From Populus alba (Eukaryota; Streptophyta; Magnoliopsida; Malpighiales; Salicaceae), in the NCBI RefSeq assembly GCF_005239225.2, contig NC_133299.1:7444967-7508966 (forward strand): DNA of 64,000 nt. Reading direction: 5' to 3'. The translations under genes and the position numbers were made by a program. A model generated the notes under the pieces. The model saw only the letters and a list, made by a program, of their open reading frames with translations. It searched no databases and was not told the DNA's origin. Positions 1 through 31,967 of the stretch are shown piece by piece (the stretch's first letter is position 1; each line of letters opens with the position of its first letter).

Positions 1-3000
1 AATTGCAAAAAAAATCTAATATAAAATGATAATATAGAAAAAATAATAATAATGAAAAAGATAAAAAAAAGTTCTAGCAAACCAGATAAGCAAACTAAAC
101 TTTACGAACCAAATCATGCAAATGAGATAACCTAATAGAAAACAAATCAGAAAGAATTACAAAGTTTAATTCTAAAACAACCCGGTAGTTAAGGACAAGA
201 CATGACAATTAAATTAAAAAAAAAAAGCAATGCAAAAAAAAAACAACCAAGAAAATCTTGGCTAATTCATCAAACTCATGGTCTAAGTGATCATGAGATT
301 GAGATAAAAAAATATAAAGGAAATTAAAGTAAATTATGAAGCATAACCTTGAAGAATAAAATTAATTTCCAACAAATCTAATAATATTAAAGAAATAAAT
401 CAATTTTTTTTTTATCAATTTAAACAATTTTCCAATAAATTCAAGAAAGTACTACAAACAAAAAGAACTAAGATAACCCATGTCCTTTTAAAAATTAAAA
501 ATAATAGAGCTCATTCTTCAATTGAATAAATTTTAAAAGATAAAACTAAAAAAACATGAGTTTAAAAAGAAAAAAAAACAAGCAGACCTGGATGAACTTT
601 CTAAACTTAAGTTAATATCTAAAACAAGCAACTCATAAAATTCTAGATCCAAACTCAATCAAGAAGCCTAATTTCAGCCAATTTAATATTGAATGATGAA
701 ATAAAAAAATAAATTTAAAAACTTACCATAGTAAAAAAAATAGTAATAAAAAGAATGAAAACCAAATTTGTTAGGGGAAGAAAACTTAAGGAGGATGGAA
801 TTGTAAAACAAAATCAATTTAATAATATATCTCAAATAAAACAAATAACAATTAAAAGAATGAAGACCAAATTTAAAAGTTAAAGTGTGGTGATACTGAA
901 TTTTTTTTTTCAATTGTATAAATTATTTCAAATAAAAAAAAAATACTAATAAAAGAAATAGGGACCAAATCTAATAGGGACAAAAAAAAAAACATGAGTT
1001 TAATTGCAAAAAAAATCTATTATAAAATGATAATATTGAAATAATAATAATAATAAAAAAGATAAAAAAAAGTTCTAGCAAACTAGGTAAGCAAACTAAA
1101 CTTTACGAACCAAATCATGCAAATAAGATAACCTAATAGAAAACAAATCAGAAAGAATTACGACGTTTAATTCTAAAACAACCCGTTTGTTAAGGACAAG
1201 ACATGACAATTAAATTAAAAAAAAAAAGCAATGCAAAAAAAAAACAACCAAGAAAATCCAGGCTAATTCATCAAACTCATGGTCTAAGTGATCATGAGAT
1301 TGAGATAAAAAAATATAAACGAAATTAAAGAAAATTATGTAGCATAACCTTGAAGAATAAAATTAATTTCCAACAAATCTAATAATATTAAATAATGAAA
1401 TCAAAATTTTTTTTTTATCAATTTAAACAATTTGCCAATAAATTCAAGAAAGAACTACAAAAAAAAAAAAAAAAGAACTAAGATAACCCATGTCATTTTA
1501 AAAATTAGTGAAAAATTCTATCAAAAATAAAAATAATGGAGCTCAATCTTCAATTGAATAAATTTTAAAAGATAAAACTAAAAAAACATGAGTTTAAAAA
1601 GAAAAAAAAACAAGCAAACCTGGATGAACCTCCTAAACTTAAGTTAATATCTAAAACAAGCAACTCATAAAATTCTAGATCCAAACTCAATCAAGAAGCC
1701 TAATTTCAGCCAATTTAATATTGAATGATGAAATAAAAAAATAAATTTAAAAACTTACCATAGTAAAAAAAATAGTAATAAAAAGAATGAAAACCAAATT
1801 TGTTAGGGGAAGAAAACTTGAGGATGGAATTGTAAAACAAAATCAATTTAATAATATATCTCAAATAAAACAAATAACAATTAAAAGAATGAAGACCAAA
1901 TTTAAAAGTTAAATTGTGGTGATACTGAATTTTTTTTTTCAATTGTATAAATTATTTCAAATAAAAAAAAAATACTAATAAAAGAAATAGGGACCAAATC
2001 TAATAGGGACAAAAAAAAAACATGAGTTTAATTGCAAAAAAAATCTATTATAAAATGATAATATTGAAATAATAATAATAATAAAAAAGATAAAAAAAAG
2101 TTCTAGCAAACTAGGTAAGCAAACTAAACTTTACGAACCAAATCATGCAAATAAGATAACCTAATAGAAAACAAATCAGAAAGAATTACGACGTTTAATT
2201 CTAAAACAACCCGGTAGTTAAGGACAAGACATGACAATTAAATTAAAAAAAAAAAAGCAATGCAAAAAAAAACAACCAAGAAAATCCAGGCTAATTCATC
2301 AAACTCATGGTCTAAGTGATCATGAGATTGAGATAAAAAAATATAAAGGAAATTAAAGAAAATTATGTAGCATAACCTTGAAGAATAAAATTAATTTCCA
2401 ACAAATCTAATAATATTAAAGAATGAAATCAAAATTTTTTTTTTTATCAATTTAAACAATTTGCCAATAAATTCAAGAAAGAACTACAAAAAAAAAAAAA
2501 AAGAACTAAGATAACCCATGTCATTTTAAAAATTAGTGAAAAATTCTATCAAAAATAAAAAATAATGGAGCTCAATCTTCAATTGAATAAATTTTAAAAG
2601 ATAAAACTAAAAAAACATGAGTTTAAAAAGAAAAAAAACAAGCAAACCTGGATGAACCTCCTAAACTTAAGTTAATATCTAAAACAAGCAACTCATAAAA
2701 TTCTAGATCCAAACTCAATCAAGAAGCCTAATTTCAGCCAATTTAATATTGAAGGATGAAATAAAAAAATAAATTTAAAAACTTACCATAGTAAAAAAAA
2801 TAGTAATAAAAAGAATGAAAACCAAATTTGTTAGGGGAAGAAAACTTAAGGAGGATGGAATTGTAAAACAAAATCAATTTAATAATATATCTCAAATAAA
2901 ATAAATAACAATTAAAAGAATGATGACCAAATTTAAAAGTTAAAGTGGGGTGAGACTGAATTTTTTTTTTCACTTGTATAAATTATTTCAAATAAAAAAA

Positions 3001-3245
3001 TACTAATAAAAGAAATAGGGACCAAATCTAAAAGAATAAAAAACGAAAGGGCTTCTTTAAATGTTTTTAAATGTAAAAACAAAATCAATTTAATAATATA
3101 TCTCAAATAAAACAAAAAACAATTAAAAGAATGATGACCAAATTTAAAAGTTAAAAGTGGGGTGAGACTGGATTTGCTGTTTACTCGCTGACTTTGGGAG
3201 GTTTTGAACTTCGAGTTGATATTTGAAAGATTCAAAGATCCAACT
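1..3245. repeat. Left part of an AT-rich tandem array, units of about 1 kb
   Basis: Three consecutive copies start at about 1, 1002 and 2030, each opening with the same AATTGCAAAAAAAATCTA-type motif and running through the same series of landmarks. Copies differ mainly in homopolymer lengths and small indels. The third copy ends in a spacer (about 3165-3245) that begins with a second copy of the last 100 bp or so of the unit. Small minus-strand ORFs of about 75 codons recur in each unit, but they are low-complexity F/Y/L/K strings produced by the AT bias and I do not call them genes. The array resumes at 12817 beyond the gypsy insertion. Confidence 0.85.
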
Positions 3246-4968
3246 TGACACGACCAAAAGCTTGATGTCTTTTTCCAAGTGCAGGAGTGTCGAAGTAATA
3301 AATAACCCGGCAAGACCGGGGTCGAACCACAGAGAGGTTAATTGTATAAATTATAAATAACAAAACAACAACAACAACAATAATAATTACAATACTCAGT
3401 ACGTGGCGTTGTTACACCTGAGAATGATCCAAAAGACCGGGTCACAGGTTTCCAGCCTATATACTGAGTTTATGAAAAGATCAAAGGGATATATTACAGA
3501 ATGTAAATAACAACAATAACAATAATAATAATAACAATAGTAGTAGTAGTAGTAATAGAAGAAGATGAAGAAATTAATGAGAACTTTGAGTTGGAAGATT
3601 AATGTAAGGATTAACCAATGATAAAAACGAATGTCAAGGTTAGAGGATCCACTAACGGTACTTCAAACAAGTATAATATAAACTCTTATTACTCAATTGG
3701 AAATCACACATAAAGAAGGTTCCCATCATATTATAAATTGTTAACATGATTACATTAGTTATCTTATTCGAATAAAGCTAATACTTGTAAATGTTGGCAG
3801 GCATTCATGATTATAACTTATGTTAACAACAAATCAAGTCCCTTTCATAGCTCAGGTGTCGGTTATACCATACAGTATGGGCTATGAAAGTACCAAGTAT
3901 TTGTTGTACCAAGTGTTATACAACATAAATCTAGATTAACCATTTAACAAGCAAAGTATTAAAAGTGAACAAGATAACAAATATAAAACATGTTAGTATC
4001 CAACGTTAAGGTCCATGTTAAGTTTATATTATACTTATTCTTACACCATTAGTGTACCATTTTCACCTTGACATAATTAACTTAGTTAAACATAATGAAA
4101 GAAAGAAACATAAATGAACAAGGTAAGAACATAAATGAGAAAGAAGTTAACTAAGTAAAGGAAAGGAAATTAAGTGCATAAACTTGATATTAATGAAAGC
4201 AAAACATAAGCAATACAAAGAGAGAAAGCAAAAGCATGATCTTGATCTGGAAACCAAGATGCCTCAATACATGGTAAGTGCCTCCTTTTATAGGCCAAAA
4301 TTTGGAACTATTGATTTGTTGACTAATTGATGAGTGGGTGGCCACATCTTGACTTTGGTGACAATCCTTATCTTCTTGTCTGAACAAAACGTCATTGCTA
4401 ACATCATAATTTGCCCAAAATCCTCAAGAATGTTCTAGGAAATTGTCTCAGCTTTCCAACAAAAAAAAGATGAGGTCATTTGGACTTCTAGAACTCAAGA
4501 TATGGGCTGAACACTAAATAGTGTCTGGGCTGCAGGACAACTTCGGACTTCTTCGTTGTTCCTTCAATTTGGACTTCAAAAGGGCCTTCTTAGATCTTGG
4601 GCTCCTCATGAAAGTTGTAGGCCTTTGTCTTACCTTTCCATCCATATAAAATGGACCTAAATCCGAGATCTAGAGCTCCAGATATGATCCAATTACCGAG
4701 CAATGTTCTGGTTTGGACTGCACCGGCATCTCTTTTCTAAGTTTGGCCATCTCTTTGTCCTTCCACTTTCAATACTTAAACTCATCAATCAATCCTTTTA
4801 TTTATGTGATCGGCCTGCATTTAAGATGAGCATTTACCATAAATTAAGGTATCTTATAATATCAAAGTTGTTATTATAAAACATGCTTTAGTTAAGGAGT
4901 TATTGATACTTCAAGTGCAAAATGATGATATAAAACCTTGATAAACATGCACTTTTAAGTACTAATCA
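3246..4968 (-). repeat. 3' LTR of the gypsy element
   Basis: This 1723-bp repeat is nearly identical to 11095-12816. It is preceded on the minus strand by a polypurine tract, which makes it the 3' LTR. It contains short (CAA)n and (TAG)n runs around 3360-3560. Confidence 0.93.
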
Positions 4969-4980
4969 CACCCCCCAACC
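4969..4980 (-). other. Polypurine tract of the gypsy element
   Basis: The minus strand reads GGTTGGGGGGTG immediately before the first base of the 3' LTR, as expected for the plus-strand primer of an LTR element. Confidence 0.85.
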
Positions 4981-6227
4981 AGCTTATTACTAGTCCCTAG
5001 TAATCTAAAGCGTTAAAATAGAGAAACAATTTGCAAGTATCACAAAGCAAGGCATTCATCATTCAACTTCTATTAATCTATCCAGATAAACAAACTCTCA
5101 TTAAATTTATATTACTGCTTCATACTTCTTAAACAAGATATTAATAAACCTTCTTTTTATGTGCGCAATATATGAAAACATAGATGATGGGGCTTTTGTT
5201 GGAAGAAAACAATATTATGTTCAAATGTTTAAGGTGAACTTCCTTGAGTTGGGATTATTATTATTATTACTCTTTTTTTTTTCTTCTTCTTTTTTTTTTT
5301 ATTTTATTTTTATTTATATACACATACAACTTAAAACATAATGTATCTTTAACCCATGTAACGAGTTTTAGGCTAATGACTCCCAGACCAGTTGGTCTTA
5401 GGGCATTAGGTGTTGAGACACCCCTACGAGCTTAACAACTCGGGTTGCAGATACTGATACGTAGATAGTGCAATGTTTGATTCCCTTAAGCTTTTCTCCT
5501 TAACCCATGTAACAAGCTTTGGGCCAATAGCTCCCAAGTCAGTTGACTTTAGGGTATTAGGTGTTAAAACACCCCTTCGGGCTTAATTGCTTAGGTTAGG
5601 GAGGCTACGAAACCAAACTTATCTACGTTTTTATTATCATCAATATTATCATCATTTTTTTTTTTTTTGCAAATTATATACTATCCCTTTCCCTTAGTTG
5701 TTACCTTTAACAAAAGAACATAAATAATGTAATAATCCAATGTGCAACCCACAATCATATGTTAAAGTGTGTGTGTGAAAATGAAGGTTTAATAATACTT
5801 GTTAAATGAGTATATGAGCAGAATCAAGTGATAACAATGCGAGAGTTTGTAAACCTGAATATTTCAAGAAGTATTCTAATAGGCCTTGTTATGAATATTG
5901 CAAATAACCATTAGAAAATTTTTACTACGATGCGTCTCAAGAATAATTCCTCTTTACTCTGCCATCCTAGTAATAACAATTTTGCCAAATGGTTTTTTAA
6001 AAACAACAACAGTTAGTTGGTTAGTTTTTTTTTTTTTTTTTAAACTACTACCCTCTCCCCCCAACCAAAACGAGACATTGTCCTCAATGTTCGAAGGTAG
6101 AAAGATAGAGTATAAAAGACATCACCTGAAACAGCGAACAATGACAAACCTGAAACACACTTAAACAAACATAAGAAGTAACAAAACAAAATAATATGCT
6201 ATTAATAAAACCAAAAGACACAAGGTT
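4981..6227 (-). repeat. Non-coding 3' region of the gypsy element with an imperfect direct repeat
   Basis: No gene is visible here. The main structure is a degenerate direct repeat of about 100 bp, copy one at about 5351-5447 and copy two at about 5502-5601. Both copies share the landmarks AACCCATGTAAC, TTAGG and ATTAGGTGTT. Long T runs lie at about 5272-5320, 5656-5668 and 6027-6042 on the plus strand. It separates the LOG ORF from the polypurine tract and is probably transcribed as part of the element RNA. Confidence 0.6.
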
Positions 6228-6881
6228 TCACAGATGAAGGCTCAAATCTAATCTAAGCTTTTTACGGCTTTCCTTAGTTGACCAATCTAGACGACTCATG
6301 CAGGGATCAATGACAGGGATGAAAGATTGTAGTTGGTCAATCAATTGTTCAGCAGTAGCAGCAGAGATTATGATTCGTCGTGCCGAAGATGTTAGAAATT
6401 CCTGTTCCACAGCTTGATCAAGGAAAGACAGCAACTTATCATAAAAACCATTAACATTTAACAAACCTATAGGTTTATGGTGAATGTGCAGTTGGGCCCA
6501 AGATGAAATATGAAAGATCTCTTCCAATGTGCCCAGACCACCTGGTAAGGCAATGAAGGCATCAGCATGGTTAAACATGGTATTCAGTCGGTCAGACATT
6601 GTTGGGACCTGTAGTTCCTCTCCAATTGTTTTTCCAATGATGTCCCCAGTTGCTAAAGCTTTGGGGACAACCCCCAAAACTTGACTGCCTCCTAAAAATG
6701 CAGCCATTGACACACCTCCCATTAACCCAAGGCTACCTCCCCCATACACTAAATGAATCTTTCTCTCAGCTAGTACCTGACCAAGATGATTTGCTGATTC
6801 TAAAAACTCTTTTTCTTTCCCAGGACTGGATCCACCGAAAACACAAATATTTTTTATGTGATGACTTGAGGAACCTGCCAT
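6228..6881 (-). CDS. LOG: Cytokinin riboside 5'-monophosphate phosphoribohydrolase (LOG family), intronless copy inside a retrotransposon
   Basis: The 217-codon ORF starts at an ATG (6881-6879) and is uninterrupted. LOG enzymes release active cytokinin bases from cytokinin riboside monophosphates in one step in the cytosol and nucleus. The Rossmann-type nucleotide-binding loop is seen at residues 13-21 (CVFGGSSPG) and the glycine-rich YGGGSLGLMG at 46-55. The family signature PGGLGTLEE lies at 113-121, with an arginine at 98; this Arg and Glu121 are the residues usually held to be catalytic. The length matches plant LOGs of about 210-220 aa. Plant LOG genes normally have several introns and this copy has none, so it looks like a retrocopy. 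It lies in sense orientation between the pol remnant and the 3' LTR. The usual Cys of the first loop (VFCGSS in typical LOGs) is Gly here. Enzyme activity is not shown by sequence alone. Confidence 0.93.
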   Translation of the reverse strand: MAGSSSHHIKNICVFGGSSPGKEKEFLESANHLGQVLAERKIHLVYGGGSLGLMGGVSMAAFLGGSQVLGVVPKALATGDIIGKTIGEELQVPTMSDRLNTMFNHADAFIALPGGLGTLEEIFHISSWAQLHIHHKPIGLLNVNGFYDKLLSFLDQAVEQEFLTSSARRIIISAATAEQLIDQLQSFIPVIDPCMSRLDWSTKESRKKLRLDLSLHL

Positions 6882-6946
6882 TTCTACACACTTCTATATT
6901 TGATGAATGTATGGGATGAGTAGAAATGAAGGGAAGGAAGAGAAGA

Positions 6947-6953
6947 ATTTATA
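6947..6953 (-). promoter_or_regulatory. Possible TATA box of the LOG ORF
   Basis: The minus strand reads TATAAAT about 66-72 bases before the LOG ATG, followed by a pyrimidine-rich leader. Spacing and leader resemble a plant core promoter. In AT-rich DNA this can occur by chance. Confidence 0.4.
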
Positions 6954-7119
6954 GATGAAAAAGTGAAAATGCAATCATACCACCTATATGTAGGCCAGTT
7001 GTCGTCTCACACTCTCTCTCTTTATTTATTTATTTTGACAAAGCATGTATGTACAGGTAGTTGTGATTGTGGCTCACATCTTCCCTTGGTTTTACGTCCA
7101 AGAACGGCTTAAACGCCCT

Positions 7120-7668
7120 CTATGGGTCGGGGATAAGCTTCCCATCCAGTTTTCTTAAAAACTGGCAAACAGGGTCTTTTTTAGTCAGATTCCCAAGACT
7201 AAGTCGATCATGTTCTTTATGGAATTGTGGCCATAAATCATGAATTACACGATGCACATCTCCACTAGGATGCGTCTCAAGGGTCAACAAAAGATTATCT
7301 AAAGACCCCTTACTCAGGCCATCCTTAATGAATTGTATCTTATCTTCACGGTTTACAGATACCATTCCTAAAGAACGACATGTCGCATTACAAGTCCATC
7401 TGGCACATCTGTGACAGACTTTCAATCGTTTTGCACGACGTTTCTTTGCAAAAGTGCTTTTACCTCTTCCAGGCATGTGTGAAATGAAAGAATTGGAGGA
7501 CTCACCTGATAATCGGACCTTTGCTTCAATTAGCCGGCGAATATCTTCAGGAATTCCATGATTCATTAACAACCGTAATCTTTCACACCTAGCACGGTAA
7601 ATTTTTGTAATCGCATTCTGAGGCAGAGCGGGAAAATACCTTTTCAACTTTTCAAGAGTGGTGTCCAT
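7120..7668 (-). CDS. Basic Cys-rich putative nucleic-acid-binding protein, carlavirus NABP-like
   Basis: I take the ATG at 7668-7666, giving 182 aa; the frame is open 20 codons further up but only from a TTG. The centre holds a run of basic residues (KKRRAKR) directly followed by a four-cysteine cluster, Cx2Cx4Cx3C (CHRCARWTCNATC, about residues 85-97 of this start). This order, with a GRGKSTFA stretch before it and an IQFIKDGL stretch after it, resembles the Cys-rich nucleic-acid-binding proteins of carlaviruses. That is family recognition by eye, not a search. Carlavirus proteins of this type bind nucleic acid and are reported to alter host gene expression. The ORF is complete and lies between the gag-pol remnant and LOG on the same strand. 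It could instead be an unrelated plant zinc-binding protein. No homology is evident to gag, pol or env. Confidence 0.6.
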   Translation of the reverse strand: MDTTLEKLKRYFPALPQNAITKIYRARCERLRLLMNHGIPEDIRRLIEAKVRLSGESSNSFISHMPGRGKSTFAKKRRAKRLKVCHRCARWTCNATCRSLGMVSVNREDKIQFIKDGLSKGSLDNLLLTLETHPSGDVHRVIHDLWPQFHKEHDRLSLGNLTKKDPVCQFLRKLDGKLIPDP

Positions 7669-7726
7669 TTTCGAAAGAGAATTAGAGAAGAGATTCAAAG
7701 AAGGGAGAAAGAGCAGAGAATTGTAC

Positions 7727-7735
7727 AAATATATA
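7727..7735 (-). promoter_or_regulatory. Possible TATA box of the Cys-rich ORF
   Basis: The minus strand reads TATATATTT about 60-67 bases before the ATG at 7668, followed by a CT-rich leader. The layout is the same as upstream of the LOG ORF. Confidence 0.4.
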
Positions 7736-7878
7736 CAGATATCAGTTATTTGGGAAACTAAAAGAACCGACTTATGTCACGGAGTACCGTTATCCGCCAT
7801 TTGACCGGGGTGAGAGACTAGCAAAACAAAAGTCACACTAAAAAGCAACAAAAAAAAAATGTGAGAAAAACAAAATAA

Positions 7879-10800
7879 TCAACCTTTATCAATAAGATTA
7901 TTCAAACCAATGGATTCATTTTCACTAGGAAACTCATCAAAGTAAGCTTTTAAACGATGTTCATTTACCTTCAAAACATTGTCATTCTTTGGATTCTCAA
8001 TATCAAGGGCCCCATAAGGATACACATGTTTCAAAATAAATGGACCGCTCCATCTTGATCTTAGTTTTTCAGGAAATAAATGGAGTTGAGAATTATAAAG
8101 CAAAACTTTTTGACCAGTATCAACTTTTTGACAATTTTCACAAGTTTTGCAGAATGCATGTGTGTCCTTGAACATGGTGGGCCAATAAAATCTATTTTGT
8201 AAGATTTTTGCAGTCGTCTCTCTTGATGAGAATTGACTCCCACATGCTTCAGAATGACAAAGTTTAATGACATTACTTACCTCATTGTCGGGAATGCATT
8301 TTTGAAATATTTGATCAGGATAATTTTTGAATAAGTAAGGGTCATCTAAGTAAAAGTTCTTCACTTCGTTCAAAAACTTTCCTTTGTCTTCGGTACTCCA
8401 GTGAGCTGGCAAATCTCCTGTTGCAAGAAAATTGATATTTTTAGCAAACCAAGGCATTGAACTGAGAGAAAGTAAGGATTCTTCAGGAAAGTAATCATCG
8501 ATTGGTGTGATGTCAGATATCAAATCTGTTGTCACTCTTGACAAAAGATCGGCATCAATATTTTCGGTGCCTTTTTCATCCGTGATTTCTTCCTGAGAAT
8601 AAATCATTTGCAAATCTTCATATTCATCCAACTCAATTTTACTCAAAGTAGATTCAAGTTGATCATGAACTAATTCTTCAATATGATCTACTTCTTGTAA
8701 ATCATTATCATCTCCAGGCTGCTTGCAAACGTTGAAAATATTCATCTCTAATGTCATGTTTCCAAAAGATAACTTCATGAGTCCATTCCTACAATTAATC
8801 AATGCATTAGAAGTTGCAAGAAACGGACATCCTAAAATAATAGAAAATGAATTACATGCTTCAACAGGTTGCGTGTCCAAGACAATAAAATCCACAGGAT
8901 AAATGAATTTATCGACTTGTACTAACACATCTTCGATTATTCCTCTAGGCACTTTTACAGATCTATCGGCGAGTAAAAGAGTTACAGAAGTTGGTTTTAA
9001 CTCACCTAGATTGAGACTTTGAAAGACTGAATATGGAAGTAAATTCACACTAGCTCCAAGATCAAGTAAGGCTCTTTCAATTTTATGTTCTCCAATAAAG
9101 CAAGAAATTGTAGGACAACCAGGGTCTTTATATTTCAAAGCATTATTGTTCTGAAGAATGGCACTTACTTGTTCGGCTAAAAAGGCTTTCTTTTTCACAT
9201 TCAGTTTTCTCTTCACAGTGCACAGATCTTTCAAAAATTTAGCATAGGAAGGAACCTGTTTAATAGCATCCAACAAAGGTATATTGATCCTTACCTGTTT
9301 GAAAATTTCAAAGATTTCAGAGTTGTGATTGACTTTCCTTTGTTTGGTCATGGCATGAGGAAATGGAAGTGCTGGCGGGGAATCAGCCTTTTCTTTGCAA
9401 TGTTCAGGTTCAACCCCTTCCTTACCCTCAGAGATAGACTCATCATCTTTCTCACAAGGTTCAAGAATGGGTTTTTCAATAACCTTACCACTACGAAGAG
9501 TGATGACTGATTTGACTTGATCCATGTGTTGGCTTCCAGAACCACTTGCATTTGCATTGTATTGCCCCTTTGGATTTTGTTGTGGTTGAGATGGAAACTT
9601 ACCTTTCTCTTGGAAACTGAGAGCAGATGTTAATTTTGCAAGAGCATCTTTAAAATCGGTCATGCTTTGAGCAAGTTGAGTATTGATTGTCTCCTGCTTT
9701 TCAATGAATGCATGCAATGTTTCCTCAAAATTTCTTCTAGGAGGTGGAGCATAAGGAGGTGCATATCCATGAGAATTTTGGAAATTATGGTGTGCTTGAA
9801 ACGGTGGCTGTGAAGTTTGTGTATTATTGTTGTCACTCTTCCAACTGAAATTTGGGTGATTTCTCCAACCAGGATTGTATGTTTGCGAGTATGGGTTATG
9901 GTTGGGTCTTTGGAAATTGTTTAAAGCATGGGCTTGTTGATGGAGGCATTCCTTGAAAGAAGGCAAAGTTGGACAATCATTGGTTGCATGCTCATTTGTT
10001 TCACAGATTTGACACACAATGTCTTGAACAGATTTTAATTGACCACTCCTTTTTAATTCTAGTGCCTCGACTTTTCTAGCTAAAGATGCAAGCTTGGCTT
10101 GGAGGTCATGATCTTCCCTAAGGTTGTGCATACCCCCACTAGATGTATGAGGTTGAGTTTTACCTGGTGCCTCATAAGTACCTGTGGTGTCCCAATTTTG
10201 AGCATTTTCAGCTAGCAAGTCTAGGTACTCCATTGCTTCATTAGGGTCTTTATCTTCAAAAGTTCCATTGCACATCAATTCAACCATTTGCCTATCTCTA
10301 GGTGTTAAACCTTCATAAAAATGTGAAACCAATCTCCATGTTTCAAAACCATGATGAGGGCAAGTATTAAGCAAATCTCGATACCTATCCCAACATTGGT
10401 AAAATGTTTCTCCTGGTTTTTGAGTGAAAGTGATGATTTGTCTTTTGAAAGAGTTTGTTCTGTGAGATGGAAAAAACTTCTTTAAAAATTGTTGTTGCAT
10501 TTCATCCCAAGCACGAATGGATCCCGGTCTCAAATTTTGTAGCCATGTTTTAGCTTTATCTTTTAATGAAAAAGGAAAAAGCTTTAATCGAATGGTGTTC
10601 ATGCTACAATTTGAGTCATTATATGTATTACAGACCTCCTCAAATTCCCTTAAATGCAAGTATGGATTTTCTAAGTCTAAGCCATGAAAAGATGGTAAAA
10701 GTTGAATAATGCCTGCCTTAAAATTAAAATGAGATGCATCAGGAGGGAAAACTATGCATGAGGGTGCACTTGTTCTTGTAGGATTCATGTGATCTCTAAG

Positions 10801-10929
10801 TGTTCTCATACGGTTATTCTCATTATTCTCATTATGAAGCGATTGATTATCTTCTTCGGCCATATTTTCTGAAAATGATGAGGATAGCCTACAAAGTCGA
10901 CCACTTAATGTACGTGACCAAACTCTCAT
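7879..10929 (-). CDS. gag-protease ORF fused to pol remnants (no RT, no integrase core)
   Basis: The ORF is 1016 aa from an ATG at 10929. A retrotransposon gag core lies at about residues 80-245, and a CCHC zinc knuckle at 306-319 (CQICETNEHATNDC). An aspartic protease of the Athila/Tat style lies at about 605-730, with LLDLGAS at 621-627. Instead of RT, the frame continues after a linker into what looks like the tail of RNase H (DADLLSRV, 792-799). The integrase zinc-binding region follows (about 885-935, FYWPTMFKD and CKTCENC). It then jumps to the integrase C-terminal part (RSRWSGPFILKHVYPYGA, 957-974). The expected second zinc-ligand His after position 892 appears to be Gln. So RT, most of RNase H and the DDE core are gone without loss of frame. 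Gag and protease may still be functional. Confidence 0.85.
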   Translation of the reverse strand: MRVWSRTLSGRLCRLSSSFSENMAEEDNQSLHNENNENNRMRTLRDHMNPTRTSAPSCIVFPPDASHFNFKAGIIQLLPSFHGLDLENPYLHLREFEEVCNTYNDSNCSMNTIRLKLFPFSLKDKAKTWLQNLRPGSIRAWDEMQQQFLKKFFPSHRTNSFKRQIITFTQKPGETFYQCWDRYRDLLNTCPHHGFETWRLVSHFYEGLTPRDRQMVELMCNGTFEDKDPNEAMEYLDLLAENAQNWDTTGTYEAPGKTQPHTSSGGMHNLREDHDLQAKLASLARKVEALELKRSGQLKSVQDIVCQICETNEHATNDCPTLPSFKECLHQQAHALNNFQRPNHNPYSQTYNPGWRNHPNFSWKSDNNNTQTSQPPFQAHHNFQNSHGYAPPYAPPPRRNFEETLHAFIEKQETINTQLAQSMTDFKDALAKLTSALSFQEKGKFPSQPQQNPKGQYNANASGSGSQHMDQVKSVITLRSGKVIEKPILEPCEKDDESISEGKEGVEPEHCKEKADSPPALPFPHAMTKQRKVNHNSEIFEIFKQVRINIPLLDAIKQVPSYAKFLKDLCTVKRKLNVKKKAFLAEQVSAILQNNNALKYKDPGCPTISCFIGEHKIERALLDLGASVNLLPYSVFQSLNLGELKPTSVTLLLADRSVKVPRGIIEDVLVQVDKFIYPVDFIVLDTQPVEACNSFSIILGCPFLATSNALINCRNGLMKLSFGNMTLEMNIFNVCKQPGDDNDLQEVDHIEELVHDQLESTLSKIELDEYEDLQMIYSQEEITDEKGTENIDADLLSRVTTDLISDITPIDDYFPEESLLSLSSMPWFAKNINFLATGDLPAHWSTEDKGKFLNEVKNFYLDDPYLFKNYPDQIFQKCIPDNEVSNVIKLCHSEACGSQFSSRETTAKILQNRFYWPTMFKDTHAFCKTCENCQKVDTGQKVLLYNSQLHLFPEKLRSRWSGPFILKHVYPYGALDIENPKNDNVLKVNEHRLKAYFDEFPSENESIGLNNLIDKG

Positions 10930-11070
10930 GCACTTGTAAGAAGAGAATAAAAGGAAGAGAAGAAAAGAGAAGAAAAAGAAACAAAAGAAAACAAAAGAAA
11001 CAAAGTTAAATAAAATGAAAAGTGAAAAGAGAAAATAAAATAAATATTATAATTTATACAAGAATTTACC

Positions 11071-11087
11071 TCCCGGCAACGGCGCCA
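11071..11087 (-). other. Primer-binding site complementary to tRNA-Asp
   Basis: The minus strand reads TGGCGCCGTTGCCGGGA, complementary to the 3' end of plant tRNA-Asp. It starts 7 nt after the end of the 5' LTR. It fixes the element's orientation and suggests the Athila-type lineage. Confidence 0.9.
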
Positions 11088-11094
11088 AAAAACT

Positions 11095-12816
11095 TGACAC
11101 GACCAAAAGCTTGATGTCTTTTCCCAAGTGCAGGAGTGTCGAAGTAATAAATAACCCGGCAAGACCGGGGTCGAACCACAGAGAGGTTAATTGTATAAAT
11201 TATAAATAACAAAACAACAACAACAACAATAATAATTACAATACTCAGTACGTGGCGTTGTTACACCTGAGAATGATCCAAAAGACCGGGTCACAGGTTT
11301 CCAGCCTATATACTGAGTTTATGAAAAGATCAAAGGGATATATTACAGAATGTAAATAACAACAATAACAATAATAATAATAACAATAGTAGTAGTAGTA
11401 GTAATAGAAGAAGATGAAGAAATTAATGAGAACTTTGAGTTGGAAGATTAATGTAAGGATTAACCAATGATAAAAACGAATGTCAAGGTTAGAGGATCCA
11501 CTAACGGTACTTCAAACAAGTATAATATAAACTCTTATTACTCAATTGGAAATCACACATAAAGAAGGTTCCCATCAGATTATAAATTGTTAACATGATT
11601 ACATTAGTTATCTTATTCGAATAAAGCTAATACTTGTAAATGTTGGCAGGCATTCATGATTATAACTTATGTTAACAACAAATCAAGTCCCTTTCATAGC
11701 TCAGGTGTCGGTTATACCATACAGTATGGGCTATGAAAGTACCAAGTATTTGTTGTACCAAGTGTTATACAACATAAATCTAGATTAACCATTTAACAAG
11801 AAAAGTATTAAAAGTGAACAAGATAACAAATATAAAACATGTTAGTATCCAACGTTAAGGTCCATGTTAAGTTTATATTATACTTATTCTTACACCATTA
11901 GTGTACCATTTTCACCTTGACATAATTAACTTAGTTAAACATAATGAAAGAAAGAAACATAAATGAACAAGGTAAGAACATAAATGAGAAAGAAGTTAAC
12001 TAAGTAAAGGAAAGGAAATTAAGTGCATAAACTTGATATTAATGAAAGCAAAACATAAGCAATACAAAGAGAGAAAGCAAGAGCATGATCTTGATCTGGA
12101 AACCAAGATGCCTCAATACATGGTAAGTGCCTCCTTTTATAGGCCAAAATTTGGAACTATTGATTTGTTGACTAATTGAGAGTGGGTGGCCACATCTTGA
12201 CTTTGGTGACAATCCTTATCTTCTTGTCTGAACAAAACGTCATTGCTAACATCATAATTTGCCCAGAATCCTCAGGAATGTTCTAGGAAATTGTCTCAGC
12301 TTTCCAACAAAAAAAAGATGAGGTCATTTGGACTTCTAGAACTCAAGATATGGGCTGAACACTAAATAGTGTCTGGGCTGCAAGACAGCTTCGGACTTCT
12401 TCGTTGTTCCTTCAATTTGGACTTCAAAACGGCCTTCTTAGATCTTGGGCTCCCCATGAAAGTTGTAGGCCTTTGTCTTACCTTTCCATCCATATAAAAT
12501 GGACCTAAATCCGAGATCTAGAGCTCCAGATATGATCCAATTACCGAGCAATGTTCTGGTTTGGACTGCACCGGCATCTCTTTTCTAAGTTTGGCCATCT
12601 CTTTGTCCTTCCACTTTCAATACTTAAACTCATCAATCAATCCTTTTATTTATGTGATCGGCCTGCATTTAAGATGAGCATTTACCATAAATTAAGGTAT
12701 CTTATAATATCAAAGTTGTTATTATAAAACATGCTTTAGTTAAGGAGTTATTGATACTTCAAGTGCAAAATGATGATATAAAACCTTGATAAACATGCAC
12801 TTTTAAGTACTAATCA
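11095..12816 (-). repeat. 5' LTR of the gypsy element
   Basis: This 1722-bp repeat is nearly identical to 3246-4968. It adjoins the primer-binding site and therefore carries the active promoter. The flanking CAACC at 12817-12821 is the second half of the target-site duplication. Confidence 0.93.
12135..12141 (-). promoter_or_regulatory. TATA box in the 5' LTR
   Basis: The minus strand reads CCTATAAAAGGAGG around this point, a good plant TATA context about 1.04 kb before the LTR end. The same motif is kept in the other LTR at about 4289-4295. Confidence 0.6.
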
Positions 12817-15800
12817 CAACCTCACTTTGCTATTTATTTGGATTGTAAATATAGGGATTACTAATCTGTTGACCCGTGCTGTGTCATGTTTCCTAACACT
12901 TTTTTATCCCTTTAAAAAAAATATTTCAAAAATGTCAAAAAAAAAAGAGGCGAGAATCATGGGATTCCAACCTAAATGAGATTCCAACTAATCAATTGAA
13001 AAAAAGAAAGAAAAAACAATATATGCCAACCTAAATGAGTATGATAAACATGAGTTTAATTGCAAAAAAAATCTAATATAAAATGATAATATAGAAAAAA
13101 TAATAATAATGAAAAAGATAAAAAAAAAGTTCTAGCAAACCAGATAAGCAAACTAAACTTTACGAACCAAATCATGCAAATGAGATAACCTAATAGAAAA
13201 CAAATCAGAAAGAATTACGAAGTTTAATTCTAAAACAACCCGGTAGTTAAGGACAAGACATGACAATTAAATTAAAAAAAAAAAGCAATGCAAAAAAAAA
13301 AAACAACCAAGAAAATCTTGGCTAATTCATCAAACTCATGGTCTAAGTGATCATGAGATTGAGATAAAAAAATATAAAGGAAATTAAAGTAAATTATGAA
13401 GCATAACCTTGAAGAATAAAATTAATTTCCAACAAATCTAATAATATTAAAGAAATAAATCAAATTTTTTTTTTATCAATTTAAACAATTTTCCAATAAA
13501 TTCAAGAAAGTACTACAAACAAAAAGAACTAAGATAACCCATGTCCTTTTAAAAATTAAAAAATAATAGAGCTCAATCTTCAATTGAATAAATTTTAAAA
13601 GATAAAACTAAAAAAACATGAGTTTAAAAAGAAAAAAAAATAAACAAACCTGGATGAACTTTCTAAACTTAAGTTAATATCTAAAACAAGCAACTCATAA
13701 AATTCTAGATCCAAACTCAATCAAGAAGCCTAATTTCAGCCAATTTAATATTGAATGATGAAATAAAAAAATAAATTTAAAAAACTTACCATAGTAAAAC
13801 AAATAGTAATAAAAAGAATGAAAACCAAATTTGTTAGGGGAAGAAAACTTAAGGAGGATGGAATTGTAAAACAAAATCAATTTAATAATATATCTCAAAT
13901 AAAACAAATAACAATTAAAAGAATGAAGACCAAATTTAAAAGTTAAAGTGTGGTGATACTGAATTTTTTTTTTTCAATTGTATAAATTATTTCAAATAAA
14001 AAAAAATACTAATAAAAGAAATAGGGACCAAATCTAATAGGGACCAAAAAAAAACATGAGTTTAATTGCAAAAAAAATCTATTATAAAAATGATAATATT
14101 GAAATAATAATAATAATAAAAAAGATAAAAAAAAGTTCTAGCAAACTAGGTAAGCAAACTAAACTTTACGAACCAAATCATGCAAATAAGATAACCTAAT
14201 AGAAAACAAATCAGAAAGAATTACGACGTTTAATTCTAAAACAACCCGGTAGTTAAGGACAAGACATGACAATTAAATTAAAAAAAAAAAAAAAGCAATG
14301 CAAAAAAAAAAACAACCAAGAAAATCCAGGCTAATTCATCAAACTCATGGTCTAAGTGATCATGAGATTGAGATAAAAAAAATATAAAGGAAATTAAAGA
14401 AAATTATGTAGCATAACCTTGAAGAATAAAATTAATTTCCAACAAATCTAATAATATTAAAGAATGAAATCAAAATTTTTTTTTTTTTATCAATTTAAAC
14501 AATTTGCCAATAAATTCAAGAAAGAACTACAAAAAAAAAAAGAACTAAGATAACCCATGTCATTTTAAAAATTAGTGAAAAAATTCTATAAAAAATAGAA
14601 ATAATGGAGCTCAATCTTCAATTGAATAAATTTTAAAAGATAAAAACTAGAAAAAACATGAGTTTAAAAAAGAAAAAAAAAAACAAGCAAACCTGGATGA
14701 ACCTCCTAAACTTAAGTTAATATCTAAAACAAGCAACTCATAAAATTCTAGATCCAAACTCAATCAAGAAGCCTAATTTCAGCCAATTTAATATTGAATG
14801 ATGAAATAAAAAAATAAATTTAAAAACTTACCATAGTAAAAAAAATAGTAATAAAAAGAATGAAAACCAAATTTGTTAGGGGAAGAAAACTTAAGGAGGA
14901 TGGAATTGTAAAACAAAATCAATTTAATAATATATCTCAAATAAAACAAATAACAATTCAAAGAATGATGACCAAATTTAAAAGTTAAAGTGGGGTGAGA
15001 CTGAATTATTTTTTTCACTTGTATAAATTATTTCAAATAAAAAAATACTAATAAAAGAAATAGGGACCAAATCTAAAAGAATAAAAAACGAAAGGGCTTC
15101 TTTAAATGTTTTTAAGTGTAAAAACAAAATCAATTTAATAATATATCTCAAATAAAACAAAAAACAATTAAAAGAATGATGACCAAATTTAAAAGTTAAA
15201 AGTGGGGTGAGACTGGATTTGCTGTTTACTCGCTGACTTTGGGAGGTTTTGAACTTCGAGTTGATATTTGAAAGATTCAAAGATCCAACCTCACTTTGCT
15301 ATTTATTTGGATTGCAAATATAGGGATTATTAATATGTTGACCCGTGCTTTGTCATGTTCCCTAACACTTTTTTATCCGTTTAAAATAAATATTTTAAAA
15401 AAGTTAAAAAAAAAAAGAGGCGAGAATCATGGGATTCCAACCTAAATGAGATTCCAACTAATCAATTGAAAAAAAAGAAAGAAAAAACAATGTATGCCAA
15501 CCTAAATGAGTATGATAAACATGAGTTTAATTGCAAAAAAAAATCTAATATAAAATGATAATATTGAAAAAAATAATAGTAATAAAAAAGATAAAAAAAA
15601 GTTCTAGCATACCAGGTAAGCAAACTAAACTTTACGAACCAAATCATGCAAATAAGATAACCTAATAGAAAACAAATCAGAAAGAATTAGGAAGTTTAAG
15701 TCCAAAATTACCCAATACTGAAGGACAAGACATGACAATTAAATTAAAAAAAAAAAAGCAATAAAAAATTCTAACGTTGAAGAATAACGTTATGTAGCAT

Positions 15801-16508
15801 AACGTTGAAGAATAAAATTGAAAAATAAAATTAATTTCCAACAAATCTAATAATATTAAAGAATGAAATCAAATTTTTTTTTTAATCAATTTAAACAATT
15901 TGCCAATAAATTCAAGAAAGAACTACAAAAAAAAAATGAACTAAGATAACCCATGTCATTTTAAAATTTAGTGAAAAATTCTATCAAAAATAAAAATAAT
16001 GGAGCTCAATCTTCAATTGAATAAATTTTAAAAGATAAAACTAAAAAAACATGAGTTTAAAAAGAAAAAAAACAAGCAAACCTGGATGAACCTCGTAAAC
16101 TTAAGTTAATATCTAAAACAAGCAACTCATAAAATTCTAGATCCAAACTCAATCAAGAAGCCTAATTTCAGCCAATTTAATATTGAAGGATGAAATAAAA
16201 AACTAAATTTAAAAACTTACCATAGTAAAAAAAAATAGTAATAAAAAGAATGAAAACCAAATTTGTTAGGGGAAGAAAACTTAAGGAGAATGGAATTGTA
16301 AAACAAAATCAATTTAATAATATATCTCAAATAAAACAAATAACAATTAAAAAAATGATGACCAAATTTAAAAGTTAAAGTGGGGTGAAACTGAATTTTT
16401 TTTTCAATTGTATAAATTATTTCAAATAAAAAAAATACTAATAAAAAAAATAGGGACCAAATCTAAAAGAATAAAAAACTAAAGGGCTTCTTTAAATGTT
16501 TTTAAGTG
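12817..16508. repeat. Right part of the AT-rich tandem array
   Basis: It begins with the second half of the spacer interrupted by the gypsy element (12817-13057). Two units follow, from about 13058 and 14064. A complete, uninterrupted spacer follows at about 15200-15528, then a last, more diverged unit from 15529 to about 16508. The whole locus is thus three units, spacer, two units, spacer, one unit. No genes are visible. Confidence 0.85.
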
Positions 16509-18550
16509 TAGCAAATAAAGCAAGGGGAGAGATAAAAGAAGGGGGGAAAAAAAGAAAAGGTCACCGAGAGCTAAACTAGACGATGTTTGGATACACATAC
16601 TGCCTCATTGTGGAGATGATGTCGAGATGAATCAAATGTTGTGGTGGAAGGTGCTATTTAATCACTAGACGACCTTGCACACGCTACCCAAAAAGAACGA
16701 GAGTTATCCACTTGTTGGTGCGTGTCACACATATGCTAACATGTTTTTTTTAATAATATTTAATATTTAGTAAAATACAAAAATGTACTTGAGATAACTT
16801 GATATTAGCCATAAAACTAGGATGAAAATGCCCCTAGAAGATAGTTTTATTGATTTTGTTTTTAAGAACAATTGAGAAATTTTACTACACTGTAAAAATT
16901 GAAACGACTTAAAAAATCATTGGATTTAAGCTTGATTTTATTTTAAAGATAATCTAGGGATTATACCATGCAAAAAAAAGTTATAAAAGACTTTTCTACC
17001 CCACATAATTTAAAAAATAACAATTATGTTGTAGTGAAAAGATTATTTTGTCCCCAATCTTTAATTCAAAATTTTTATGATAAAAAGACAACGTGGTTAT
17101 CCTTTTAATATCATCAACGTGGTTATAAAAAATAGTAGTTAAAATATATATTTTTTCTTGCTTTTATTTTACAAATAAACTTGTCATGTAAAGGCTAAAT
17201 CGGCGAAGCCTCCTTTATAAGTTATATTTGAAATCCAATATTTGTTTTACTTTCGACTATATTTTTCATATAATTGTAAATACCCTCGATTTAAATAATC
17301 TTCAAATTAATTAATTATTTTTATTTTTTTAATAGATTTAATTTTAAATTTTGAAATAAAATGATATAATAACAACTAATGGATAAGGGATACGTTTGGG
17401 AATATAAAAAGGAGAAGATAAAATGAGAAAGGTGTAGAAGATTAGAGAATGGGGGAGATAAGAAGAATTCTTCATCTAAAAATTTAGTTTTTAAATTTAA
17501 ATAAAAAACTAGTGGTCTATATGCTTTTTTCTTCTTTAAAGAGAGTAACCAATGCAAAACAAAAGGAAATCGAAATTAAAATTGAGAAAGTATGTGTATT
17601 AATTCTTAAATGATTTTAAGCTATGTGAAGGTTTGACCAATTTAGCCATTTATAGAAATATTTTTTTGATATGTTGCCATTAATGACCCTTGGACATTAC
17701 AACTTAATCATTTGTAAAGTCTTAGAGCATGTGGGTCCTTTGCATTTACTATGGCACTCTCATTTTGTCAATTTAACTCTTAATATAGGATCATTTAAGT
17801 CTCTCTCTCTCTCTCTTCTTCTTCTTTTTTTTTTTAATTTGTTATTGAGATAAATGAATTCTTGAAAAGACTCTTCAAGAATTTCAAGTCCTAAAAGTGC
17901 ATGAAAAATGTTGCCCAAGTACAATATTAGAAGAAAATTAAATAAAGTTTGCTAGACACAAAGTATGAAGAGTTGTCTATAACTTCTCCTCAAGTTCCAC
18001 TTCCAAAATGTACACGTTTCTTTCAAAGCAGGGAGCATTCTAAAAGCAAATGATGATATTTATACAATGAATCTTTAGATTTTCTTGATTTCTATCTAAA
18101 TTAAAAATGTATGAAATAAGTCTATTTCATAGAATATCTTTAAAGTAAAAATAGAATTCATTCTTTTTTTTTTTTCCTTTCCATTCATTTGTATTTCTTC
18201 TATTTTGCGATTTTTTAAATACTTCTTCAAGACCTTGAAGTGATTGTTTTTTATCTAACATAATGTAGGAAAGGATCTAGGTTGTCTTGGTAAATACTTC
18301 TATAAAATATTATATTTCTTATAGAAATATATTTGTTCAAAAAAGACCTAAGAAAATATTAATAAAAAATAAAAAGATTAATTGCAAAGAAAAAAGAAAA
18401 CCAGTATTATTTATATACATGAGAATTACACGAGAACAAAAAGGGTTGGATTATTCTCTGTGGTGTACTACACAATCTCAACACCCCAATGTTTAAATAA
18501 CTATCCTTCCTAAAATAAGTACTACATTTTCTTAATTCATTTCCTTATTA
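16509..18550. other. Intergenic, no gene seen
   Basis: This is AT-rich sequence between the array and the 3' end of the invertase gene. A CT/CTT microsatellite runs at about 17801-17834. Possible short ORFs have no recognisable content. Confidence 0.5.
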
Positions 18551-21500
18551 TTATTCATTGCGTGGATTCTCCCCCACTCGGTCCTTTATAGGGACATTCA
18601 TCACAGGTAAGTTCATACTCCAAGCATTAAGATTCTCCACTGTGATGGTCTCGCTGCCATTGTTGAACACGTACAAGTGAGCCTTTTCAGAGACTGCAAT
18701 AGTTGGATAAACCCTAGATGAGATGGCAATTCTTCCTCCAGCTCCAAAACTCTCTATAACAGAGTGATCAATCTGGAAAGAAAGAGCAATAACCAAAAGT
18801 ATGTTAAGATAGTTAAGTAAATGAGAACAAAACAAGAGCAAGTATTGTTTCAGACTAAGATAATTAAAGAACCATACCAAACTTCTGAGCGAAAGTTTCT
18901 TGTCGGTTAAATCAACATCAACAAATCCAGCAAAAGATGGTTTATACAGTCCTTTACCTAAGGAAGAGCTGTTTAAAGAAGCCATGTATACAGACCATGT
19001 TCAGTAGAGGTTGATACCAAAATTAGGATGAGAACATGTCTAGAGAAGAGAAGAGAAGAAAAGTTATAACACAAACCTTCTTGCATCAGAGCACAAGAGA
19101 ACTTTATGCTTGTCTGCTGCTTTGAATACTTTAAAGAAGACAGGAGTGAATTCTTCAAGATTTTTTGAAGCTAATGTCAAGAGTCCGAATGGTCCAAGTC
19201 CACCAGGAGCTTTGGAACCCTTTTGGGCACATACATCAAGTGCATCAAGCTTAGCCCATTTTGGATCAAAAGGCTCAGCTTTGTCCAAGCTTGGGAAAGA
19301 AAAGGTTACATCAACATCAGCCTGTAAAATACATGCAGAGCAATTAATCAACAAAATCTTAGCTTAACTTCACTACCATTCAAAGTAAAAAAAAAAAAAA
19401 AAAAACATTGACTTGATATATTTTTTAAGTAATTGTTTCTTGGACTTAAATGTCCAATTTCTTTCTAAAAAGAAAAATATAAAGCAAACAAAGAAACAAA
19501 CCTGAGCAACAGTGATGCCTTTAACTTGAGCATGATCACCTTGGTAGAGCTTTTGATTGCTCAGTTGAACATTGTGCCCTCTTAATTTCTCCAATTCTAC
19601 AACGGGCCACTGCAGCAATTGCTTTCCACTTGGATCTAGCCATACCTTCCTAGGAATCAACTACAAAAATGCAATAAAAAAAACATAAAATGTTATTAAC
19701 CAATAAAAATGACTTTTTAAAAGTTAACAATAAATTCCACCAAGTATTACCAGAATTCCTGCCCACCCTTTGTTCGTATCTTGTTGAACAGCATCAGACT
19801 CATTAGCCCAACCCCACAAAATCCTCCTATTTGTGCTTGGGTCAAAGAACGTCTTAGAAGCATAAAAGTTTCCATAATCTAACCTAAGACCAGCCCAACC
19901 ATCAACTAAGCCCACATCAGGAAAATACTTTTCCTTTTTATTATCATAAGTACCAAGTGTATAGTACTCGTATCTTGTCAGGTCTAAGCTAACCTTCAAT
20001 GCATGTTTCACATTTTGTCCATTAACCGAAGGATCCAACCCATTTTCACCGAATGATGAAACGGGGAAAAAATCTGGGCATTCCCACATACCTGTACCCT
20101 GAACTGAATGTAACGGGTGTTTGGTCTTGGCCCATTTCTTCAAGTCCCTACTCCTGTACAAATATGCAACCCCTACATGGTTCCTCCTGCTGCCTATCAA
20201 AATCCTCCAATGCCCATCAGCCCACCAAGCAGTGGTCGGATCACGGAACGCGCTACCGTTTACACTAACATCCGGGTTCAGTATCGGATTATCATCAGGC
20301 TTAACCCATTCACGAAGATATGGATCCGACAAGTTTGCGGGTACTGCATAGTTTTGGATCTGACTGTTATTTTTATCGGCAATACCCGTGTACAAGATAA
20401 CAGGCTCACCATTTGGAAGGATTGTCGCTGAACCAGACCAACATCCATAGCTATCAAACCATTTAGAAGGGTAGATTGCAGGCTCAAGGGATTCCCAATT
20501 GATCAAATCCTTTGAAACGGAATGAGCCCAAACAATGTTACCCCACACTGCACCTTTGGGGTTGTATTGGTAGAATAGATGGTAGAGCCCCTTGTAGTAC
20601 ATAGGTGCTGCTCATACAAAAGGGCACACGTAAAACAATCAAAATCAGGATTAGGATTAATTCAAAATCTGTCTGAATATACTTGTTGAATTGGCCATGA
20701 AACCAATCAGGTTCTTGTTGAACTGGCTTACCATTTGGATCTATTGTCGATAAATTAACCCCAATCAATTTGAGCCGCACCCAAAAGCATCATTGGCCCA
20801 AGAAGGAGACAAAAATACAAAAGTTAGCCATCATTGTTGAAGTCAATTTTCACTCAAGCATTAATCAATGCACAAAATTTGAACAGAGCTAGTGAGGAGA
20901 GTTCCCAGCAAGTAAAAAATGGTACAACCTTTTTTAAAGGCAAACAAAAACATCAAAACCTCATGTCATGTCATTTAAAACAATAATCTGTCCTGGGAAT
21001 GATTCATATAGGATTATCCCACCACATTCCCTAGTTTTCTTCATAAACGGACCCACCAATTTTATGCAGGGAATAAACACGATTACAAGGAAACAAAAAG
21101 ACGTGGATTATATACATAATTAGGTTTTGCCTTCAATGTCAACCTTGGCGATATAAATCCCTACCTCTAATTAACCACTAACCTCATCTTTAATATCCAA
21201 TTTTCAACCATCTTCTTGTCTAATATCCAAGGAGTTTTCATCTCATTCACAAAAACAGAGAGACATGAAAAAATATGGACACCTTAATCAATAGCTTTAT
21301 CCCTACTAGCCTACCCCCGAATTTTATTAAATACATTTGAAAAAAATAATTAAATTAAAAATTCATGATAAGAAAATAAAGTAATAAGTAAATTTGAAAT
21401 CTTGACTAACAATTAAAGTAATATATCTCTTTAAAAAAAATGCACGTGGTCAAATTTGAAATCTTGACTAACAATTAAAGCTTTATCCCTACTACACTTA

Positions 21501-25426: not shown

Positions 25427-25601
25427 TCACACATAAAAATCAGCGAAATGATGAGAGGTAACATTCAAGTCAATTAACTTGGCTAAGCTGAAAGGAAGGC
25501 TGTTATCTTTCCATTTATTTCTCTTGACATGCATGGCCGCATGGACATTGCGAATCCAGTTAAGAGCTTTGTAGTATTCAATATTCATTATCAATTTCCC
25601 A
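25427..25601 (-). pseudogene. Possible terminal exon, frameshifted copy (S1)
   Basis: It is collinear with the intact 56-codon frames at 40691-40858 and 44215-44382, but a 7-bp insertion (about 25578-25584) breaks the frame. The downstream part still reads ALNWIRNVHAAMHVKR and ends at the same stop. The protein family is not recognised. Confidence 0.35.
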
Positions 25602-27139: not shown

Positions 27140-27403
27140 TGTAACAAACGAATGTGAAGTAGAGGAAAAACAGAATTGTAAAGAGAAGTTTTCTCTTGTG
27201 TATTGAATAATAAAGCTCGTCGAAATATATACAGCAGGCAAAGAATATTCTAACTAACTTATCCCATGCAATATTAATGCTACCCTTTATGTATAGTGCT
27301 TTACAGATGCAATTAAAGAATAAATAACAGAGTAACAGAATTCAGGTAACCATGCCATCCTTCTCTGCTATGACGTGGTGTATTGATGAGTCATCCTCTA
27401 ATA
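27140..27403 (-). repeat. 3' LTR of copia B
   Basis: It is paired with 31968-32231; by eye only an A/C and an A/G difference separate them. Confidence 0.9.
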
Positions 27404-31946: not shown

Positions 31947-31955
31947 TGATCGGCT

Positions 31956-31967
31956 GCTCTGATACCA
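31956..31967 (-). other. tRNA-iMet primer-binding site of copia B
   Basis: The minus strand reads TGGTATCAGAGC immediately after the 5' LTR, the standard primer site of plant copia elements. Confidence 0.93.

Follow-up and report, generated by a model that had tools for sequence, protein, structure and literature searches.

Within a 64,000-nucleotide stretch of Populus alba DNA (the window; contig NC_133299.1 of assembly GCF_005239225.2, forward-strand positions 7,444,967 to 7,508,966, numbered here from 1), we identified a minus-strand Ty3/gypsy long terminal repeat (LTR) retrotransposon at 3246-12816, which is non-autonomous and carries two additional genes. These are two intact, non-overlapping sense open reading frames (ORFs) lying between the pol remnant and the 3' LTR: ORF-A (minus strand, 7120..7668; 182 aa), which encodes a flexivirus-type Cys-rich protein of the Viral_NABP and Carla_C4 families, and ORF-B (minus strand, 6228..6881; 217 aa), which encodes a LOG-family protein with the PGGLGTLEE motif and three changed prenyl-pocket residues. 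We tentatively favor the interpretation, which we regard as nearly an even call, that both genes were acquired, one encoding an anti-silencing factor or nuclear regulator and the other a phosphoribohydrolase of changed specificity. Among gypsy elements with captured ORFs, the LOG type is already in print, while the Cys-rich gene of viral kind is apparently new.

Anatomy and age of the element

In the sense orientation, the 5' LTR extends from 12816 to 11095 (1722 bp, with TG...CA ends) and the 3' LTR from 4968 to 3246 (1723 bp). Pairwise alignment, which extends a few bases beyond the TG...CA ends, gave 99.4% identity, with 1718 of 1729 columns identical, 10 mismatches, and 1 gap. By sequence reading, we located a primer-binding site (PBS), TGGCGCCGTTGCCGGG, at 11087->11072, and a polypurine tract (PPT), GGTTGGGGGGTG, at 4980->4969, adjoining the 3' LTR. 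The flanks CAACT and CAACC correspond to a target-site duplication of 4 bp, or of 5 bp with one mismatch, so that the LTR pair, PBS, PPT, and duplication of a Ty3/gypsy insertion are all present. The empty site is also recognizable, as another unit of the flanking satellite (~15.28 kb) runs continuously through the junction. An earlier note on this DNA had described a gypsy element with LTRs differing at about ten positions, and these features bear it out. The satellite surrounding the insertion, at 1-3245 and 12817-16510, consists of tandem units of ~1 kb, with a G+C content of ~22% in 1-2000 and ~91-97% identity in the longer unit-to-unit matches.

The LTR divergence is ~0.6%, or ~0.3% per lineage. 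Plant substitution rates range from 2.5e-9 to 1.3e-8 per site per year, placing the insertion at ~0.2 to 1.2 million years ago. Two LTR remnants of the same family were detected at 51249-52930 and 35637-36681; they are ~80-84% identical to the present LTRs (up to 92% in short pieces), and the family therefore predates this insertion. Neither remnant is accompanied by a matching interior, and the remainder of the window yielded no further LOG, ORF-A, or gag.

A single ORF of 1016 aa (minus strand, 10929->7879) encodes the retroelement proteins. In the Pfam scan, it matched Retrotrans_gag (73.4 bits; cut-off 24.1) and the H2C2 zinc-binding domain of integrase (Integrase_H2C2, 47.6 bits; cut-off 25.5), together with an aspartyl protease (Asp_protease_2) at 21.4 bits and E 4e-4, slightly under the curated cut-off of 24.3. 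Its tail resembles the C-terminal end of an integrase by eye. No reverse transcriptase (RT), RNase H, or integrase core family was listed for this ORF at E up to 1, and the element is therefore non-autonomous. The Athila ORF-1 domain (pfam03078), a mark of the Athila elements with an env-like gene, was likewise absent from the matches listed at E up to 1 when all three ORFs were scanned. Based on the gag and on the PBS, which we take to resemble the tRNA-Asp-type PBS of Athila-like elements, the element presumably belongs to the Athila/Tat superclade. A scan of IMG/VR, which reaches close relatives only, yielded none for ORF-A, ORF-B, or the gag ORF.

The earlier note had also placed two intact sense ORFs between pol remnants and the 3' LTR, and it was correct in this. 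When the 2910-nt interior behind the gag ORF was simulated 1000 times with a Markov model, the longest ATG-initiated ORF had a median of 73 aa, a 99th percentile of 129 aa, and a maximum of 215 aa; given these lengths, ORFs of 182 and 217 aa are not due to chance. A search for other viral genes, which covered the sense stop-to-stop ORFs longer than 93 aa, revealed none in the element besides the gag-protease-integrase ORF, ORF-A, and ORF-B. Downstream of ORF-B, at 6026..6066 on the minus strand, sequence reading revealed a second polypurine stretch, GGTTGGGGGGAGAGGG, at 6066->6051, followed by an A-run at 6044->6026, which may represent an internal PPT or a trace of cDNA capture.

The A-run, located ~185 nt past the LOG stop, is what a processed copy might leave. 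Together with the observation of a single locus, it is consistent with an artefact: the assembly could be wrong here, or a fragment of an endogenous virus and a processed copy of a LOG gene could have been inserted independently, as nested insertions. We consider this most improbable, since both ORFs are sense, complete, and non-overlapping inside near-identical LTRs, the window contains no Ns, and LOG domains have been published within gypsy consensus sequences from other species (PMC9289625, in part).

ORF-A and the flexivirus Cys-rich proteins

At full length, ORF-A scored 31.1 bits against Viral_NABP (cut-off 23) and 25.7 bits against Carla_C4 (cut-off 20.9), and these were the sole Pfam families listed for it at E up to 1. 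Its core, residues 50-125, exceeded both cut-offs when scanned alone (Carla_C4, 28.4 bits; Viral_NABP, 27.1 bits), and none of the five shuffled versions of ORF-A that were scanned matched either family. Motif reading identified a basic run, KKRRAKR, followed by CX2CX4CX3C at residues 85-97, as a pattern in the sequence only. The earlier description of this ORF as carlavirus-like, based on the basic run and the cysteine spacing, is supported by the family profiles at the level of a flexivirus-type protein.

Cys-rich proteins (CRPs) of the related viruses have known activities. As reported in the accessible part of PMC12172455, the mandarivirus and allexivirus CRPs contain a nuclear localization signal and zinc-finger motifs, the carlavirus CRPs are commonly silencing suppressors, and p12 of the carlavirus CVB is a transcription factor that causes hyperplasia. 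Family members differ: among the mandariviruses, the CiYMaV CRP leads to cell death and the CYVCV CRP to silencing suppression (PMC12172455). By analogy, ORF-A would most likely protect the element RNA or alter host transcription in the nucleus. The earlier suggestion that the cargo pushes cells toward division finds a parallel in the hyperplasia induced by CVB p12; silencing suppression, common among the carlavirus CRPs, nevertheless fits a retrotransposon better (PMC12172455, in part).

Several observations count against a viral counter-defense role for ORF-A. The protein was assigned by family profiles, rather than by comparison with individual virus proteins; its N- and C-terminal pieces gave no convincing family match; and a role in silencing suppression would derive from homology with a functionally uneven family. 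A comparison with the Protein Data Bank (PDB) yielded nothing convincing for ORF-A, the best E value being 0.04.

The direction of transfer could also be the opposite, with flexiviruses having obtained their Cys-rich gene from a plant or a retroelement, or ORF-A could stem from a plant zinc-finger family. Homology itself has no direction, and the Viral_NABP fit is limited to profile positions 116-202 of 227. Since only the two viral families were listed for ORF-A, we consider such an origin very unlikely.

ORF-B and its prenyl pocket

ORF-B matched Lysine_decarbox (132.3 bits; cut-off 27) and TIGR00730 (172.5 bits; cut-off 96.35). Against the NCBIfam LOG equivalog, with a cut-off of 300 bits, it scored 117 bits; this model is uninformative for ORF-B because Arabidopsis LOG3, at 134 bits, fails as well. 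The family profiles, the PGGXGTXXE motif, and the catalytic Arg and Glu together identify ORF-B as a LOG-family protein, in agreement with the LOG-type ORF of the earlier note. It forms one uninterrupted frame; plant LOG genes contain introns. Its identity is 49.2% to LOG3, which was the best PDB match, 44.7% to LOG8, 46.5% to a Pseudomonas LOG, and 50.6% to a Nitrospirales protein. LOG3 and LOG8 share 68.2% identity. ORF-B has thus diverged far beyond the LOG3-LOG8 distance, and its identity values by themselves do not assign it to the plant LOGs. Single-sequence structure predictions reached mean predicted local distance difference test (pLDDT) scores of 42.0 and 39.7, too low for use.

A PDB search with ORF-B returned 17 sequences at E up to 1e-3, of which four of the best were used for the alignment (5zbk was omitted because it nearly duplicates 5zbj), and a scan of genome contigs returned three bacterial LOGs. 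In the first set of seven relatives, ORF-B retained 37 of the 42 invariant columns, versus 59 matches to LOG3 in the 153 other columns (Fisher p 6e-9). The five losses, in ORF-B numbering, were Glu80Asp, His96Ser, Lys99Leu, Ala100Asn, and Glu124His. For a wider comparison, eight plasmid-borne relatives were added from the 24 listed among 158 matches, with Agrobacterium, Ri/Ti-type plasmids, clinical germs, and near-duplicates left out. The catalytic Arg98 and Glu121 of ORF-B (Arg99 and Glu122 in CgLOG) are retained, and each is invariant in all 15 relatives.

The prenyl pocket of CgLOG is formed by Met96, His97, Lys100, Glu125, and Trp129 according to the available part of PMC4979012, which is our sole source for CgLOG, CpLOG, and MmLOG, all three lying outside the alignment. 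Mapped onto these residues, His96, Lys99, and Glu124 of the relatives correspond to three of the five pocket positions. The pocket of ORF-B reads Met, Ser, Leu, His, Trp and so departs from the cytokinin type. With seven relatives, the concentration of losses in the pocket gave p 0.008. In the wider set, Glu124His falls at a site with Glu in all 15 relatives, and Lys99Leu at a site with Lys in 14. Among the columns conserved in at least 14 of the 15, ORF-B retains 20 of 22, both losses being pocket residues (p 0.013).

Other observations detract from a shifted specificity. The value of p 0.008 is fragile because the addition of MmLOG would remove three pocket positions from the invariant class. 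Three pocket positions differ in MmLOG, which nevertheless counts as a LOG (PMC4979012, in part). Widening the set to 15 relatives weakened the case for concentration in the pocket: 12 of 13 columns are retained among those conserved in 15/15 (p 0.077) and 30 of 35 among those conserved in at least 13/15 (p 0.089), so that we rate the statistics of this sequence comparison as moderate. The first changed pocket site carries His in only 11 of the 15 relatives. Furthermore, a TIGR00730/LOG protein from a Macrococcoides caseolyticum plasmid (L010; NZ_CP080014.1, 101352-101879) has Ser, Ile, and Asn where ORF-B has Ser, Leu, and Asn, and this protein is electronically annotated with cytokinin biosynthesis. 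The pocket change could also signify an inactive enzyme, or could be older than the capture and have arisen in a host paralogue.

The earlier note regarded the LOG as cytokinin-activating. Its family assignment stands; activation is uncertain because ORF-B retains only two of the five prenyl-pocket residues. As pockets vary in the LOG family, the comparison leaves a cytokinin activity of ORF-B neither shown nor excluded, and we regard the protein as a probable hydrolase of changed specificity.

A related model proposes that the LOG activates cytokinins, that the Cys-rich protein is a growth-promoting transcription factor, and that the resulting host division yields more copies in the meristem and germline. 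The LOG family assignment with an intact PGGXGTXXE motif, the variability of LOG pockets, including the similar Ser-x-Arg-Ile-Asn loop in L010, and the hyperplasia induced by CVB p12 are consistent with it. Glu124His and Lys99Leu, at their otherwise conserved sites, argue against it, as do the CgLOG mutants, in which alanine substitutions at the adenosine monophosphate (AMP)-contact and catalytic residues nearly abolished activity, except for S19A (PMC4979012); the mutagenesis text gives no separate naming of a lysine mutant. In our view, this model is quite unlikely.

Expression, known relatives, and possible roles of the cargo

A pattern scan revealed a TATA-like box and a pyrimidine-rich leader upstream of each cargo ORF on the minus strand, one at 7726..7738 (in CTGTATATATTTG), 67 nt before the ORF-A ATG, and the other at 6945..6957 (in CATCTATAAATTC), 72 nt before the ORF-B ATG. 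The gag start also has a pyrimidine-rich leader, with a TATA-like box at a distance of 129 nt. A TATA-like hexamer combined with a downstream 30-nt stretch of at least 86% pyrimidine occurs at 7 of the 2523 ATGs in the window, including the gag, ORF-A, and ORF-B starts and an ATG inside ORF-A that shares its TATA; this count is suggestive only, because the pattern was chosen after viewing the two cargo leaders. The sequences suggest that the two cargo ORFs are probably served by separate promoters and leaders, spliced subgenomic messages being a possible alternative.

Alternatively, both genes may be passive passengers that bring the element no benefit, having been captured through template switching or by read-through of host mRNA and viral RNA. 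The earlier note held that both ORFs had survived recent transposition. The young LTRs do show that the source copy was intact at the time of movement, but selection since insertion would leave no visible mark at only ~0.3% divergence per lineage, so that intactness tells little. Only a single copy of the cargo-bearing element was seen in the window, which leaves retention of the cargo in the family unproven and speaks against a selected function. Captures of host sequences by LTR elements are often reported (PMC13317346, in part). Against this stand the two separate captures, both intact, and the promoter-like leaders. In addition, ORF-B remains open and retains 20 of the 22 strongly conserved positions despite an identity to LOG3 of only 49%; this points to long constraint somewhere, possibly before the capture. 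Overall, we judge a passive origin unlikely.

LOG (YgdH) domains in plant Ty3/gypsy elements have been reported in consensus sequences from Citrus sinensis and C. clementina and, without a copy filter, from Populus trichocarpa, in a paper that refers to Steinbauerova 2011 for such elements (PMC9289625, in part). Those consensus sequences were collected via their RT, which was undetected in the present element, and the accessible part of the paper mentions no Cys-rich viral gene with them. The same source describes Phalaenopsis gypsy elements in which an AlkB RNA demethylase, a type of gene that flexiviruses also have, occupies an additional ORF of its own and is proposed to help the element against its host. 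The Phalaenopsis AlkB is nearest to human and Arabidopsis RNA demethylases, whereas both Pfam families matched by the present Cys-rich gene carry viral names. Insect TRAS/R1 long interspersed nuclear elements (LINEs) likewise carry an RNA-virus domain, an SF1 helicase with weak silencing suppression in N. benthamiana (PMC5563155, in part), but there the domain is fused into ORF2 of a non-LTR element, in contrast to the separate ORF of a plant LTR element described here.

ORF-A shares its Pfam families and the order of a basic run followed by four cysteines with the CRPs of Carlavirus, Allexivirus, and Mandarivirus. Unlike these, it is chromosomal, with no other viral gene detected beside it, and its N- and C-terminal parts are unmatched. 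An endogenous flexivirus-related sequence has been reported in a cucumber chromosome (PMC3136472, in part), where it represents a replicase region, rather than a Cys-rich gene, and lies outside LTR elements. With Arabidopsis LOG3 (2a33) and LOG8 (1ydh), ORF-B has in common the protein family, the catalytic Arg and Glu, and PGGXGTXXE, and differs in the pocket, where their His, Lys, and Glu are replaced by Ser, Leu, and His. In the open literature, subscription papers and supplements being outside the scope, we found no report of a carlavirus-type Cys-rich gene in a retrotransposon or of a Cys-rich and LOG pair, and the accessible part of PMC11963269 contains no LOG, YgdH, or carlavirus. The earlier view that the combination is undescribed therefore stands for the Cys-rich gene and the pairing, and does not extend to LOG in a plant gypsy element (PMC9289625, in part).

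Elsewhere in the window, a GH32 invertase-like coding stretch lies at 19724-20611 on the minus strand (Glyco_hydro_32N, 304 bits), and an ORF at 18551-19000 resembles, by eye, its C-terminal part. A Ty1/copia element at ~26434-32746 on the minus strand contains two long open frames (RVT_2; gag and integrase core), with repeats of 94-99% identity near both ends and an odd order. Three related stretches of ~1.6 kb, at 24173-25824, 39427-41014, and 43069-44595, are 87-92% identical to each other.

Building on the observed anatomy and family assignments, the interpretation that we favor, of two functional acquired genes, would involve the following steps. The genes would have been acquired downstream of a truncated gag-pol, in an element that would supply its own gag and protease and obtain RT and integrase from an autonomous relative. 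The flexivirus-derived ORF-A protein would enter the nucleus via its basic run, bind nucleic acid through its four-Cys cluster, and shield the element through suppression of RNA silencing, a change in host transcription, or both. ORF-B would be a retroprocessed LOG that retains nucleoside-monophosphate phosphoribohydrolase chemistry and hydrolyzes a nucleotide pool; given the changed base pocket, its substrate is probably other or broader than cytokinin riboside monophosphates. Both cargo ORFs would be expressed from their own leaders. A bolder version, which we consider rather doubtful, is that this is a two-gene counter-defense cassette at the level of the family, in which an RNA-virus silencing suppressor directed against RNA interference and a neofunctionalized, non-cytokinin LOG are driven by their own promoters, while the RT of a partner is parasitized.

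Plant gypsy elements often contain extra ORFs, most of them of open function (PMC6317226 and PMC7264820, in part). The present element is possibly a retrotransposon armed by borrowed genes, as some members of the virus protein family of ORF-A are known to counter silencing, and ORF-B comes from an enzyme family with a readable substrate pocket. If ORF-A is active as a suppressor, the element would represent the first of the cases that we found in which a plant LTR retrotransposon carries an RNA-virus counter-defense gene, and why such elements retain extra genes would become directly testable.

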